Shown here: positions 22,279 to 26,846 of the stretch, piece by piece
Position numbering within the stretch: position 1 is the stretch's first letter
Layout: each line of letters opens with the position of its first letter
Virus record (IMG/VR): IMGVR_UViG_3300009474_000007
Location: 1-28,261 of that record
Length of the DNA stretch: 28,261 nucleotides
From: a virus
Direction: 5' to 3' (one strand)
Program-made: the position numbers and the translations under genes
The notes under the pieces: model-generated
The model's input: the letters and a program-made list of their open reading frames with translations, nothing else
What the model was told of the DNA's origin: nothing
Databases searched by the model: none

Positions 22279-24162
22279 TTAGGATCCGGATAAGGACGTA
22301 AGTAACATTGTTTTGAATAAACTATTTACCAATTGCCCATCTGTTGGGCCAGGCAACATAATAGTTTGTCCTGGAGCTCCAGGAACAGAAATTACCTGTG
22401 GTCTTCGTTGACCTCCTCCAGATCCCATCATCATTGGAACAATCAGAGTTGATGATTGTGACTGATTGTATGTTGGATATTGTTGAAGTTGTTCTGGAGC
22501 TACTGGTTGTTGAGATACTGATTGGACTTGTGATGCTGCATTTTTTGATTGTATGGAAGCAATCATAACCTCTCTTTCAAGAGCTTCTCCAGTTAATCCG
22601 GACTTTTGCCCTTTAGTCCTCGCTTCTTGTGATGCGTTAAATACTGATGGATTTGAAACACCAGTCTTAGTAGGGTCTAACATACCTTTTAGTTGGGTTG
22701 TTGACATTGCCGACAATTCTTGTTTTGTTGGTGTTGGTTTTGCTGCTGTTGCCGCCGGAGTTGTTGGTGGTGATGCTGCGACTGAACCTTTTCCTGATGA
22801 TTTTTCAGATTGTTCTTTTGCTTTTACTGTCGTCAATGGTGATGGAAGTTTTTGACCAAGACCAACAGAACTTGGATTTACTGGTGAACCACCTTTATAC
22901 ACCTCAAAATGGAGGTGAGTATTTTGTCCATCAGGATATAGATTAGCAATTTTTTGGCCACCGTATACAGTATCTCCAACCTTAACTGAAGGAGTAGTGT
23001 GATAGTATCTAGTTTTTAATCCTCCACCGTGATCAATAGTAACAAAACCATTGTAGCCATTATGAACAGCGGCTGTCACTTTTCCGGTTTTATGGGCCGC
23101 TACTGATGCGTTTAATGCTCCGGTATGGTGAGTCATATCGAGACCAGCATGTTTTCTTTTTCCATTATCTCGATTAGCTCCAAACAGTTGTCCAGCAGCT
23201 TCTCCTGCTTTTCCTCCAGGTAATGGAAAAAAAGTATCTCCACTAACTGGACCATCATAACCTCCACCTTCCGGAGTTTCTTCTATTGGTGGATACTCTA
23301 CAGGTTCATTAAATGGATTTTCACCTCCTCCAATATCTTGTGTGCCAGAACCAGAGCTAGATCCCGGATCAGCTTGTTCGAATTTTGTGACGACAGAATC
23401 AAACTTATCCAATACCGAACTCATTGTTAGACCTGATGACATTGCAGCTGCTTTTTGTTTTGCCTCCTGTGCTTTTAATTTTTCTTTTTGTTTAATTTTA
23501 AGATCTTGTTGTTTATTTCCCGTTCCAGTTACAGCTTCATGAGCTCTATCTCCTAAGAAACCGCCTGCAAAGTTACCTGCCATACTTCCAATAACGAATC
23601 CAAGTCCTGGAATTGGAATTAAGGTTTGACCTATTGCACCACCAATAAGACTGCCCGCAAGAGCTCCACCCGCTCCGGCAGCTGCTTTCCCAACAGATTC
23701 ACCTTCAGCAAGTCCAGTTGCAAAATCTAACCCAGCAAAAGCTGCGTTAGCAATACCAATAGCTCTCATACCTCCCAACTTAATTCCTTTTCCTTTTGGA
23801 ATTGCCCCTCCTGCTTTGGGATTGGGTTTGGGTTTGGGTTTTGTGGCGCCTCTTTTTTTACCACCAAAAAAATCTCCAATAAATCCAGCCGCATCCAAAG
23901 TTCCACTAACTAAACTTGATAGTAGACTACCCGCAGATCCAAAGGTTGCGGCTACATTTAAGTTGGATAATTTTTCAAGGTCTCTTTTCTTTGGAAGTTT
24001 TATTTCTTCAATATTTCGAATCTCAACATCCATGAATTTTAAGAATCCTTGATAGGATTTTTGAGTGGATTTCATTGTAGATCCAGATCTATTGATGCTC
24101 ACAATATTATTGAGAGCACTTACTAATGGGGAACTTATTGTTGTTTTAGTTTTTGGTGCCAT
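22279..24162 (-). CDS. Tail hub protein with M23 peptidase domain, 627 aa
   Basis: Residues 308-435 form an M23 (LytM-type) zinc endopeptidase domain: His338 and Asp342 in HAGLD, His388 in TRYYH, and His416/His418 in THLHFEV. All the zinc and catalytic positions of the family are present, so it should cleave peptidoglycan cross-links during entry. Before it are a charged N-terminus (about 1-70), a Gly/Ala-rich hydrophobic region (about 135-205: GAGGALAGSLIGGAIGQTLI), and a short coil (SSVLDKFDSVVTKFEQ). A low-complexity Pro/Ala/Gln tail follows. Its start overlaps the previous stop as TAATG. It occupies the T4 gp28/gp29 region, so it may also act as tape measure or central tail protein. Confidence 0.85.
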   Translation of the reverse strand: MAPKTKTTISSPLVSALNNIVSINRSGSTMKSTQKSYQGFLKFMDVEIRNIEEIKLPKKRDLEKLSNLNVAATFGSAGSLLSSLVSGTLDAAGFIGDFFGGKKRGATKPKPKPNPKAGGAIPKGKGIKLGGMRAIGIANAAFAGLDFATGLAEGESVGKAAAGAGGALAGSLIGGAIGQTLIPIPGLGFVIGSMAGNFAGGFLGDRAHEAVTGTGNKQQDLKIKQKEKLKAQEAKQKAAAMSSGLTMSSVLDKFDSVVTKFEQADPGSSSGSGTQDIGGGENPFNEPVEYPPIEETPEGGGYDGPVSGDTFFPLPGGKAGEAAGQLFGANRDNGKRKHAGLDMTHHTGALNASVAAHKTGKVTAAVHNGYNGFVTIDHGGGLKTRYYHTTPSVKVGDTVYGGQKIANLYPDGQNTHLHFEVYKGGSPVNPSSVGLGQKLPSPLTTVKAKEQSEKSSGKGSVAASPPTTPAATAAKPTPTKQELSAMSTTQLKGMLDPTKTGVSNPSVFNASQEARTKGQKSGLTGEALEREVMIASIQSKNAASQVQSVSQQPVAPEQLQQYPTYNQSQSSTLIVPMMMGSGGGQRRPQVISVPGAPGQTIMLPGPTDGQLVNSLFKTMLLTSLSGS

Positions 24163-25940
24163 TATCCGTCTACAATACTATATACCATTTTTGAGTATAA
24201 TATAAAGAAATTATCATCATTAGAAGCTCCCATCGGAGGTGCTTGCCTGCCACTCGACATTTGTGCAGGTTGTCCACCGCCAGAAGATGGAGGTGATTGC
24301 GGTTGTGGGGTACTCATATTCATTGGAGCCATAGTCACTTGTGATTGTTGTTGGGGAGGTGGTTGTGCAACTGTCTGAGATACCTGTTGTGCTGTTTCTG
24401 CTTGTGTTGGTGCAGGTGCAACACCGGGTTTTGCAGGAGGAGTAGTAACAGGAACACCTTTAGCCAAAGAATATGTCTTACCGCTCCCCTTATCGTGAAA
24501 TTTATTAGCACCAGGGCCCCCTCTATCAAGATACACACCACCTGGATTTTGGGACCTTCCTTTAAAGTAAATGCCTCCGCCAACACCAGCTTTAGATTTT
24601 GCAGATAAAGGTCCACCAGTCTTAAAATCATTTATAATTCTTGCTGCAGCTGCGGGATCTCCTTTTTTAAACAACTTAGCAAGATTATTGAGTCCATCTG
24701 GACCGGCGGCAATTTGATATAATTTTGATTTTCGTTCTTCAGGAGTTTTTCCAAGTAATGGTGCGATATGTCCATAAGCTTTATCAGCAGCAGGATCATG
24801 GCCAGTAACACCATAAATTGCTGATGACATTGGAGTAAACTGAGCCTTTCCAGTAACTTCGTGAGCCAACTTACCAGAATCTCCCTTAGCACGATTGACC
24901 ATCACTTGCATCACGTCTGCTTGATTTTGATCTCCCGTGGCTTCTAGAGTAGCTGTAAATGCTGCGATGTTTTCTCCCGATGAGTCACTACCCGTTCCTG
25001 ATGTCGCAGCGCCTGGGGTTGGAGTTGGAACACCGGAATCTGATGACTTTGGCGCAGCAGCGGACCCCTTACCACCACTCGGCGCACTTGGCGCAGCAGA
25101 TGGTTTTTTGGTCATGGAATTTATTGCAGCATCAAATCTTTCTAAAATTGCATTAAACCTATCCAATATTGGGCCAGACAATCCTTCAGAACCAGGACCA
25201 GGAACTGATTGAACTTCTTCCCCTCCCCCAAAACCACCACTTAGTGCATTGACAGCTAAAGCACCTCCTCCAGCAATTGCGGCTCCTGTGCCAGCCATTT
25301 TCAACATATTCATCATTCCTTTAGGAACACTTCTTTTAAGTGGACCTCCAGGAACTTTGATATCTAAATTAAGTCCTTCGCCTCCAGTACTTGCTGTGGG
25401 TAGATTCGATAATTGTTTTACTATTTTTATAATAGTCTGTCTTATAATTTTCGCAACCTCAAAAGTCTCTGTGAAAATTCTTTGTAAGACTTGTAAATTA
25501 TCTCCTAAAGTTTTTACATTTTTTCTATTGCCAAGAAACTGAATGAATCCAATAGCTTGTTGATATAATTTTAAGAAATTAGCAAGAATTCCACTTGGTT
25601 TTGCATCATCAACTTGTTTTATTCTATCTTGATAATCTTGACCAAACGTCTTTAAGGATTGATTAATAACATTATTTACATTTTGATTTATAGATTGAAC
25701 TCTATTTTCTACATTTGTCAGAATATTTGAAGATAAAGTTTTAATTATGGATCCCAAATCAGGAGGCCGCGGAGCTACAGCGGCGGATCCTCTCTGAAAT
25801 CCTACAATTTTATTAGCCGCAGAAGAAACAATAGACGAACCCAAAGGAGATCCGCCAGAAATAAAATTCATAGCTGCAGGCATAGTTGCCTGTCTTTCTC
25901 TAACTATGGTTTGGGGATTGATCGGTGATCTAATTGCCAC
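24162..25940 (-). CDS. Tail hub protein with SleB-like hydrolase domain, 592 aa
   Basis: The start is GTG, overlapping gp51 by 11 bases. N-terminal helices (about 60-180) with an amphipathic character are followed by a Gly/Ala hydrophobic stretch (210-240), a short coil (PILDRFNAILERFDAAINSM, 257-276) and a Pro/Ala/Ser linker. Residues about 323-470 look like a SleB-type cell wall hydrolase: Glu333 in FTATLEATGDQ, VMQVMVNRA, and KAQFTPMS match the E...VM..VNR...QF pattern of that family, with Glu333 the likely catalytic acid. A Pro/Gln-rich tail follows. The length is nearly that of T4 gp29, the tape measure (590 aa). It may be the tape measure with a lytic domain, or a hub protein. SleB assignment is by pattern only. 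Confidence 0.75.
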   Translation of the reverse strand: MAIRSPINPQTIVRERQATMPAAMNFISGGSPLGSSIVSSAANKIVGFQRGSAAVAPRPPDLGSIIKTLSSNILTNVENRVQSINQNVNNVINQSLKTFGQDYQDRIKQVDDAKPSGILANFLKLYQQAIGFIQFLGNRKNVKTLGDNLQVLQRIFTETFEVAKIIRQTIIKIVKQLSNLPTASTGGEGLNLDIKVPGGPLKRSVPKGMMNMLKMAGTGAAIAGGGALAVNALSGGFGGGEEVQSVPGPGSEGLSGPILDRFNAILERFDAAINSMTKKPSAAPSAPSGGKGSAAAPKSSDSGVPTPTPGAATSGTGSDSSGENIAAFTATLEATGDQNQADVMQVMVNRAKGDSGKLAHEVTGKAQFTPMSSAIYGVTGHDPAADKAYGHIAPLLGKTPEERKSKLYQIAAGPDGLNNLAKLFKKGDPAAAARIINDFKTGGPLSAKSKAGVGGGIYFKGRSQNPGGVYLDRGGPGANKFHDKGSGKTYSLAKGVPVTTPPAKPGVAPAPTQAETAQQVSQTVAQPPPQQQSQVTMAPMNMSTPQPQSPPSSGGGQPAQMSSGRQAPPMGASNDDNFFILYSKMVYSIVDG

Positions 25941-26115
25941 GATTTGCTGCCTGTTTTGCCTTTAAGTTTTCTTCTTCGATATGTTGTTTCAATAGGGCTA
26001 AGTAGATATCTCTCTCCCAAGGCATCATATTTTCGATCTCAGTCAAAGAATATTTATGGAACTGCATCAGAGCAAAATTAATTCTAAAATATGACTCAAG
26101 ATCAATATGAGCCAT
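25930..26115 (-). CDS. 51: Hub assembly protein gp51-like, 61 aa
   Basis: The 61-aa product reads as two helices: ESYFRINFALMQFHKYSLTE, then MMPWERDIYLALLKQHIEEE. The MPWERD-Y...L..EE.E pattern is typical of the downstream partner in tail-assembly chaperone pairs (lambda gpT type). In T4 and its cyanophage relatives the protein after gp26 is called gp51, the catalyst of hub assembly. The ATG lies 2 bases beyond the gp26 stop, and its frame stays open upstream past a slippery heptamer, so it may also be made as a gp26-51 fusion. It overlaps the next gene by 11 bases. Confidence 0.75.
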   Translation of the reverse strand: MAHIDLESYFRINFALMQFHKYSLTEIENMMPWERDIYLALLKQHIEEENLKAKQAANRGN

Positions 26116-26117
26116 AA

Positions 26118-26846
26118 TTAGCCGAAAAAACTTGTTAACCCTTCTAACGTAACTTCATTCTCTACTTTTGTTTTTGGATTCGTTACTTTAAATGTATGAG
26201 CAAGTTTAGGCATTGTTTCAAAGAACTGTTCAATTTTCTTGAATTGACTGGAATTCATAGTTTCAATAAAGTCAATTAATTCTTTCTTGGTGCAATCACT
26301 TGCAGCCCAAGATTCTTCTTCAGTATATACGGCTTCAATACAACTTGAAATAATATCAAATGATTTTTCAATTGTAGATTGAGATTCCTGCGTAGTGAAA
26401 TCAAAGTTGTTTTTAATAAATTGATCTAATGAAGGATACTTCATTTTAATTACAATTTTGTCATCAATTTTAATTTCTGATGTATGATTCAGATCTTTAA
26501 CTACATTTATTTCATCTACATAAATTTTTACTGGAACTTCAGTTACTCCGTCGTCTGAACAGGTAATGATGAGTTCTATAGATTCTCCAACAGATTTTCC
26601 TCTTACATTTAAGAAAATGTATTCAATATCAAATGAGGGGAGATCTTCTACTTTAATTCCTCTAGTTATGATACAATCTTTCAGTACTGATTTGATAGCA
26701 AGAGTGATTTGTTTTGGATCTTGAGTTTCCAGAGCAAGAATCAAAACCTTTTCTTCTTTAACAAGAAATGGCCTATACTTTATAGATTTTCCAGTCGAAG
26801 GCAATTCAAGTTCATATGTTGGTGTAGCAATTGTCGGTAATGGCAT
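26118..26846 (-). CDS. 26: Baseplate hub subunit gp26-like, 242 aa
   Basis: The protein starts with a beta part (YELELPSTGKSIKYRPFLVK) and the conserved EEKVLILALETQDPKQI, then a long VKIYVDEINVV strand region and a helical C-terminal half (QFIKNNFDF, ELIDFIETMNSSQFKKIEQF). This layout is that of the T4 gp26 baseplate hub family (T4_baseplate). T4 gp26 is about 208 aa, so the length is normal. It lies 35 bases after the tube-fold gene and 2 bases before gp51. In T4 gp26 is needed to build the hub; the pairing with gp51 and the slippery site here suggest a chaperone-like role. An ACTAAATA box 26 bases before the ATG is a weak late-promoter candidate. Confidence 0.85.
   Translation of the reverse strand: MPLPTIATPTYELELPSTGKSIKYRPFLVKEEKVLILALETQDPKQITLAIKSVLKDCIITRGIKVEDLPSFDIEYIFLNVRGKSVGESIELIITCSDDGVTEVPVKIYVDEINVVKDLNHTSEIKIDDKIVIKMKYPSLDQFIKNNFDFTTQESQSTIEKSFDIISSCIEAVYTEEESWAASDCTKKELIDFIETMNSSQFKKIEQFFETMPKLAHTFKVTNPKTKVENEVTLEGLTSFFG
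26124..26130 (-). promoter_or_regulatory. Candidate -1 ribosomal frameshift site at end of gp26
   Basis: On the minus strand, gp26 ends ACA AGT TTT TTC GGC TAA. In the reading frame this is the canonical X XXY YYZ heptamer T TTT TTC. A -1 slip would continue CGG CTA ATT ATG GCT, reaching the gp51 start codon in frame with no stop. The fusion would hold nearly all of gp26 plus all of gp51. No strong downstream hairpin is evident by eye. Confidence 0.6.

Follow-up and report, generated by a model that had tools for sequence, protein, structure and literature searches.

Genes 26 and 51 of T4-related phages very likely encode a tail assembly chaperone pair by programmed -1 frameshifting, probably replaced in T4 by two paralogous genes

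The closest described systems are the tail assembly chaperones (TACs). In phage lambda, the short protein gpG is accompanied by rarer gpGT, in which a -1 frameshift adds a C-terminal extension; the gene adjoins a tail-tube-like gene and precedes large tail genes, and the chaperones are not found in virions. Atkins et al. (2016, PMC5009743) describe wide conservation of this G-T frameshift, "except T4", and sequence conservation among known TACs is low (PMC2147016). In phage 0305phi8-36, the G and GT equivalents exist in a two-gene form (PMC2147016), as paralogous genes without a frameshift. Among T4 proteins, gp26 and gp51 have been classed as chaperones of hub assembly, and gp51 is required for assembly and absent from the particle (PMC3004832). 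We analyzed a viral DNA stretch of 28,261 nt (IMG/VR record IMGVR_UViG_3300009474_000007, hereafter the window) carrying genes 26 and 51, and conclude that the two very likely (probability about 0.9) act as a single gene that encodes a tail assembly chaperone pair by programmed -1 frameshifting. A search of the openly licensed literature turned up no paper that describes a gp26-51 frameshift or treats T4 genes 26 and 51 as G/GT.

The locus resembles the lambda pair in several respects. A short protein, gp26, is paired with a C-terminal extension that a rarer -1 frameshift would add, the gene upstream of gp26 encodes a tail tube protein (PF23849), large tail genes follow, and T4 gp51 shares with the lambda chaperones its absence from virions. 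Unlike lambda gpG, gp26 is longer and has no sequence similarity to gpG detectable by hhalign (probability 0.1%), and its slip site is U UUU UUC accompanied by a Shine-Dalgarno (SD)-like element and a hairpin. The 3' end of window gp26 reads GAA GGG TTA ACA AGT TTT TTC GGC TAA (Table 1). Shifted by -1, the frame reads TTT TTT CGG CTA ATT ATG GCT and meets its first stop only at 25930; the slipped product would run ...LTSFFRLIMAHIDL... across the junction, and the predicted gp26-51 fusion comprises 305 aa (35.2 kDa, against 27.5 kDa for gp26 alone). The gp51 reading frame of the window has its own ATG at 26115, 2 nt past the gp26 stop, and ORF2 matches phrog_634 (8.4e-28).

Table 1. Positions of the features at the gene 26/51 junction, in window coordinates.
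Feature	Position	Strand	Remarks
Gene 26 (gp26)	26118..26846	minus	242 aa; putative short gpG-like product; PF12322; predicted TAC-like domain at residues 1-86
SD-like GAAGGG	26139..26144	minus	GGG 8 nt upstream of heptamer
Slippery heptamer T TTT TTC	26124..26130	minus	correct X XXY YYZ frame within gp26
0-frame stop TAA of gene 26	26118..26120	minus	1 codon past slip site
ORF2 ("gp51"), -1 frame	25930..26130	minus	66-codon extension counted from the slip; putative T-like part
Downstream RNA hairpin	26088..26118	minus	directly 3' of the slip; fold z, pairing, covariation
Hairpin core stem UAUGGCUCA/UGAGUCAUA	26116-26108 paired with 26098-26090	minus	

The strongest evidence for frameshifting lies in the conservation of this site. 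We assembled 165 complete gp26 junctions (the window plus 164 relatives in IMG/VR and among GenBank phages, grouping into 104 clusters at 90% identity), spanning cyanophages, Cr30, pf16, Moby, KVP40-like phages, Emmerichvirinae, Pootjesviridae, and others; searching IMG/VR with Cr30, Moby, ValKK3, and VAP7 as queries added few loci. All 165 junctions carry an in-frame heptamer and an open -1 frame, with T TTT TTC in 134 and T TTT TTT in 31. Under codon usage alone, and without correction for kinship, log10 P was -8.4 for TTT as the first Phe codon of the slip site and -9.7 for a T-ending codon before the Phe pair (43 clusters at 75% aa identity for both), while only 1 of 113 FF pairs elsewhere in the same genes was slippery (90% clustering). 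When 67 cyanophage sequences were compared over 225 gp26 codon columns, every column but the two Phe codons of the slip site showed synonymous variation. In a pelagic clade of 29 relatives, the 0-frame stop lies about 8 codons past the slip site, compared with 1 in the window, and both the slip site and ORF2 are retained. Conservation of the heptamer far exceeds chance. A functional -1 frameshift at gp26/gp51 is thus very likely, and close to certain on sequence grounds, while being inferred without expression data. The earlier note on the window had claimed a canonical in-frame heptamer at the gp26 end and a -1 slip into gp51 without a stop, and both claims held; its proposed checks, that heptamer and -1 frame be kept in relatives and that synonymous sites nearby vary, were also met. 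We also observed one record from a Moby relative (L178, near 3259) in which the slip run is 1 T short and the frame is broken, possibly by sequencing error.

At 66 of the 165 loci, no ATG, GTG, or TTG occurs among the first 14 codons of ORF2. Frameshifting is the only explanation for ORF2 at these loci because no start codon lies near its beginning. ORF2 is missing from the annotation of several GenBank phages (L085, L090, L197; hits H134, H145, H151, H159), apparently because an ATG is absent, and our reading would correct these records.

Both stimulatory elements expected of a -1 frameshift site, an upstream SD-like sequence and a downstream structure, are present. GGG at the E-G codon pair, 8-9 nt upstream of the heptamer, was found in 33 of 41 clusters, compared with 13.7 expected from codon usage, and in 87 of 102 clusters at 90% (31.9 expected). 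The distance from GGG to the heptamer resembles the spacing of known SD stimulators. Mean fold z reached about -1.9 only directly past the slip, with both mononucleotide and dinucleotide shuffles, and was close to 0 elsewhere. In 26 cyanophages, 88.1% of cells in the hairpin were paired and covariation was 0.139, compared with 0.070 after shuffling. These sequences were picked for looking alike at that region, so the pairing percentage is favorable, and, as the cyanophage sequences are related, the shuffle count should not be read as a probability. A second clade shows a compensatory stem change (GCCUCU/AGAGGC vs GCCUGU/ACAGGC). When all one-codon-stop junctions were placed in a single register, RNAalifold returned no consensus structure, because the hairpin register differs between clades and structure appears in subsets.

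We hypothesize that most ribosomes would pass the slip site and terminate to give gp26, the gpG-like product, while a minority would shift tandem Phe-tRNAs by -1 on U UUU UUC to give the GT-like gp26-51 fusion, with the SD-like element before the site and the hairpin after it promoting the shift. If the parallel with lambda holds, the gp26 part may coat the tape measure protein, the 51 extension may bring in the tube protein or its baseplate initiator, and frameshift efficiency would determine the ratio of gp26 to fusion. Frameshifting itself and its rate are inferred only, as are the binding partners and any role in tail length. Judged from sequence alone, most T4 relatives appear to make the short and long chaperone by a ribosomal slip, as lambda does.

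The assignment to tail chaperones rests on predicted structure. By sequence, window gp26 belongs to PF12322 (T4_baseplate; 6.2e-71, 239 bits against a curated cut-off of 24.5) and matched neither Pfam TAC models nor PDB sequence profiles. An AF2 model of gp26 (pLDDT 84.6), compared with the PDB by VIA-align, gave the HK97 tail assembly chaperone 2ob9 as the best match for the N-terminal domain (Z 8.0, 84 residues, 4.0 A), followed by 3fgx (Z 7.5), 3klu (YqbN, which we take to be a member of the XkdN-like chaperone family; Z 7.4), and 5ir0 (Z 4.7), before a drop to an unrelated row at Z 2.4. The PDB labels 2ob9 as a tail assembly chaperone and 3fgx and 5ir0 as uncharacterized. Foldseek alone placed 2ob9 second (E 1.6). 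A Z of 8 is modest and was obtained with a predicted model, and the match covers only the N-terminal third of gp26 (about residues 1-88). The similarity to 2ob9 and 3klu is one of predicted fold at 6-7% identity, and unlike them gp26 has a further domain about 150 residues long. The gp26 N-terminal domain is thus predicted to have a TAC fold, and a tail chaperone role for gp26/gp51 is likely, although inferred in the absence of binding data. A design shared with lambda gpG-gpT, as first suggested for this locus, is supported by the fold but not by gpG sequence, and the accompanying claim that the next genes fill the tape-measure slot could not be confirmed from sequence. The gene downstream of gp26/ORF2 (24162-25940, 592 aa) has no assignment by sequence and gave no BLAST match to the annotated tape-measure gene of Cr30; in Cr30 and phiM12 the tape measure is annotated one gene further along. 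Downstream of the 592-aa gene, the window gene at 22279-24162 has an M23 peptidase domain and weak matches to tape-measure PHROGs.

T4 departs from the window in having genes 26 and 51 divergently arranged and in lacking the slip site. PF12322, which includes window gp26, matches both T4 proteins, and T4 gp26 and gp51 align along their length (hhalign E 1.2e-17), as paralogs. T4 gp51 has about 50 residues beyond gp26, of which residues 199-248 align with ORF2 (hhalign E 1.6e-9), beginning at the slip codons and not at the gp51 ATG of the window; as a control, T4 gp26 does not align with ORF2. T4 gp26 retains ...GLKEFF, with FF coded TTC TTT and an immediate stop in the -1 frame. On sequence evidence, the frameshift extension is present in T4 gp51 as an in-frame fusion and absent from T4 gp26. 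The paralogy of the T4 genes and the extension in gp51 are new here. PF12322 is present in 2 copies in T4, RB43, Aeromonas phage 31, and Moon, all without the slip site, and in 1 copy in ten heptamer genomes and in Maynard. In a tree, the gp51 rows cluster together (100/99), as do the frameshift rows among themselves (97/93); the base of the tree is weak. A T4-type gp51 model, folded as a natural fusion, had no match in the PDB.

T4 has probably swapped the frameshift for a duplication, given that gp26 and gp51 are paralogous, that gp51 has the extension, and that copy numbers are 2 vs 1. In these T4-type phages, gene 26 would supply the short form with a non-slippery end and gene 51 the long form in frame. 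Replacement of the frameshift by two genes is likely, resting on four complete genomes and parsimony; because the tree is not securely rooted, a loss of the frameshift in T4 is argued from parsimony and not proven, and the direction from frameshift to duplication is inferred. A bolder reading, which we also consider likely, is that T4 gene 26 is G and gene 51 is GT, derived by duplication of an ancestral frameshift gene that most of the T4 superfamily still uses, and that gp51, the essential "hub assembly catalyst", in fact serves as a tape-measure chaperone. The earlier note had cited the usual view that T4-like phages lack the frameshift; this holds for T4 and the three other two-gene phages examined but fails for most of the T4 superfamily, and the note had missed that T4 gp51 is a gp26 paralog with an in-frame frameshift extension. 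0305phi8-36 resembles the inferred T4 arrangement but belongs to a different phage lineage, in which no frameshift-using relative has been shown, whereas here the frameshift and two-gene versions can be compared inside one family. If true, this reading explains T4's exception to G/GT frameshifting, gives gp51 a concrete, testable function, and leaves the frameshift as a nearly universal feature of long-tailed phages. Frameshift and duplication would then be a natural pair of solutions to one stoichiometry problem in a single protein family.

Three rival explanations were considered, each very unlikely. According to the first, gp51 is a separate small protein made from its own ATG by reinitiation past the gp26 stop, the T-run being incidental. 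In its favor are the window ATG lying so close to that stop, TAATG in ValKK3, VAP7, and phiDP10.3, and the annotation of gp26 and gp51 as separate genes. However, 66 loci have no start codon nearby, one clade has its stop several codons further downstream, the SD-like GGG and the window ATG are >20 nt apart, conservation extends to the heptamer but not to the gp51 start, and homology to T4 gp51 begins at the slip codons rather than at an ATG. According to the second, gp26 and gp51 serve as components or catalysts of the baseplate hub, and other genes, for example gp27-gp28, fill the G/GT role. T4 gp26 has traditionally been counted as a hub protein (PMC3004832), and the record of Citrobacter phage Moon (L193, 21607-23245) joins gp27-gp28 as a "tape measure chaperone, GT-like fusion". 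Against this, gp26 has a predicted TAC fold, T4 gp51 is not in virions (PMC3004832), and gp27 matches the structural domains Phage-tail_1/Phage-tail_2; the Moon annotation looks misassigned because gp26/gp51 fit G/GT. Transcriptional slippage on the six-T run in place of ribosomal frameshifting could draw on the presence of runs of 6-7 T, the ability of homopolymers to slip, and the L178 record, but is contradicted by the phase-specific X XXY YYZ register and by the upstream SD-like element and downstream hairpin, both ribosomal stimulators.

Programmed frameshifting remains our preferred reading, and a few deviating records, examined separately and outside the 165 junctions, are set beside it here. 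In Ackermannviridae (Maynard, phiDP10.3, 3M, Kuja, and VAP7) and the related K445, ORF2 stays in the -1 frame and no canonical heptamer is found, the site being only a degenerate NTT TTY; among these records (L194, L195, L196, L202, L088, L091), some have TAATG overlaps and some lack an ATG. These phages may rely on a weaker slip or may express ORF2 in some other way. The phiM9 site is T TTT TTG. Finally, we note that Cys pairs are conserved in T4-type gp26, and nearly so in gp51, and may form a metal site.
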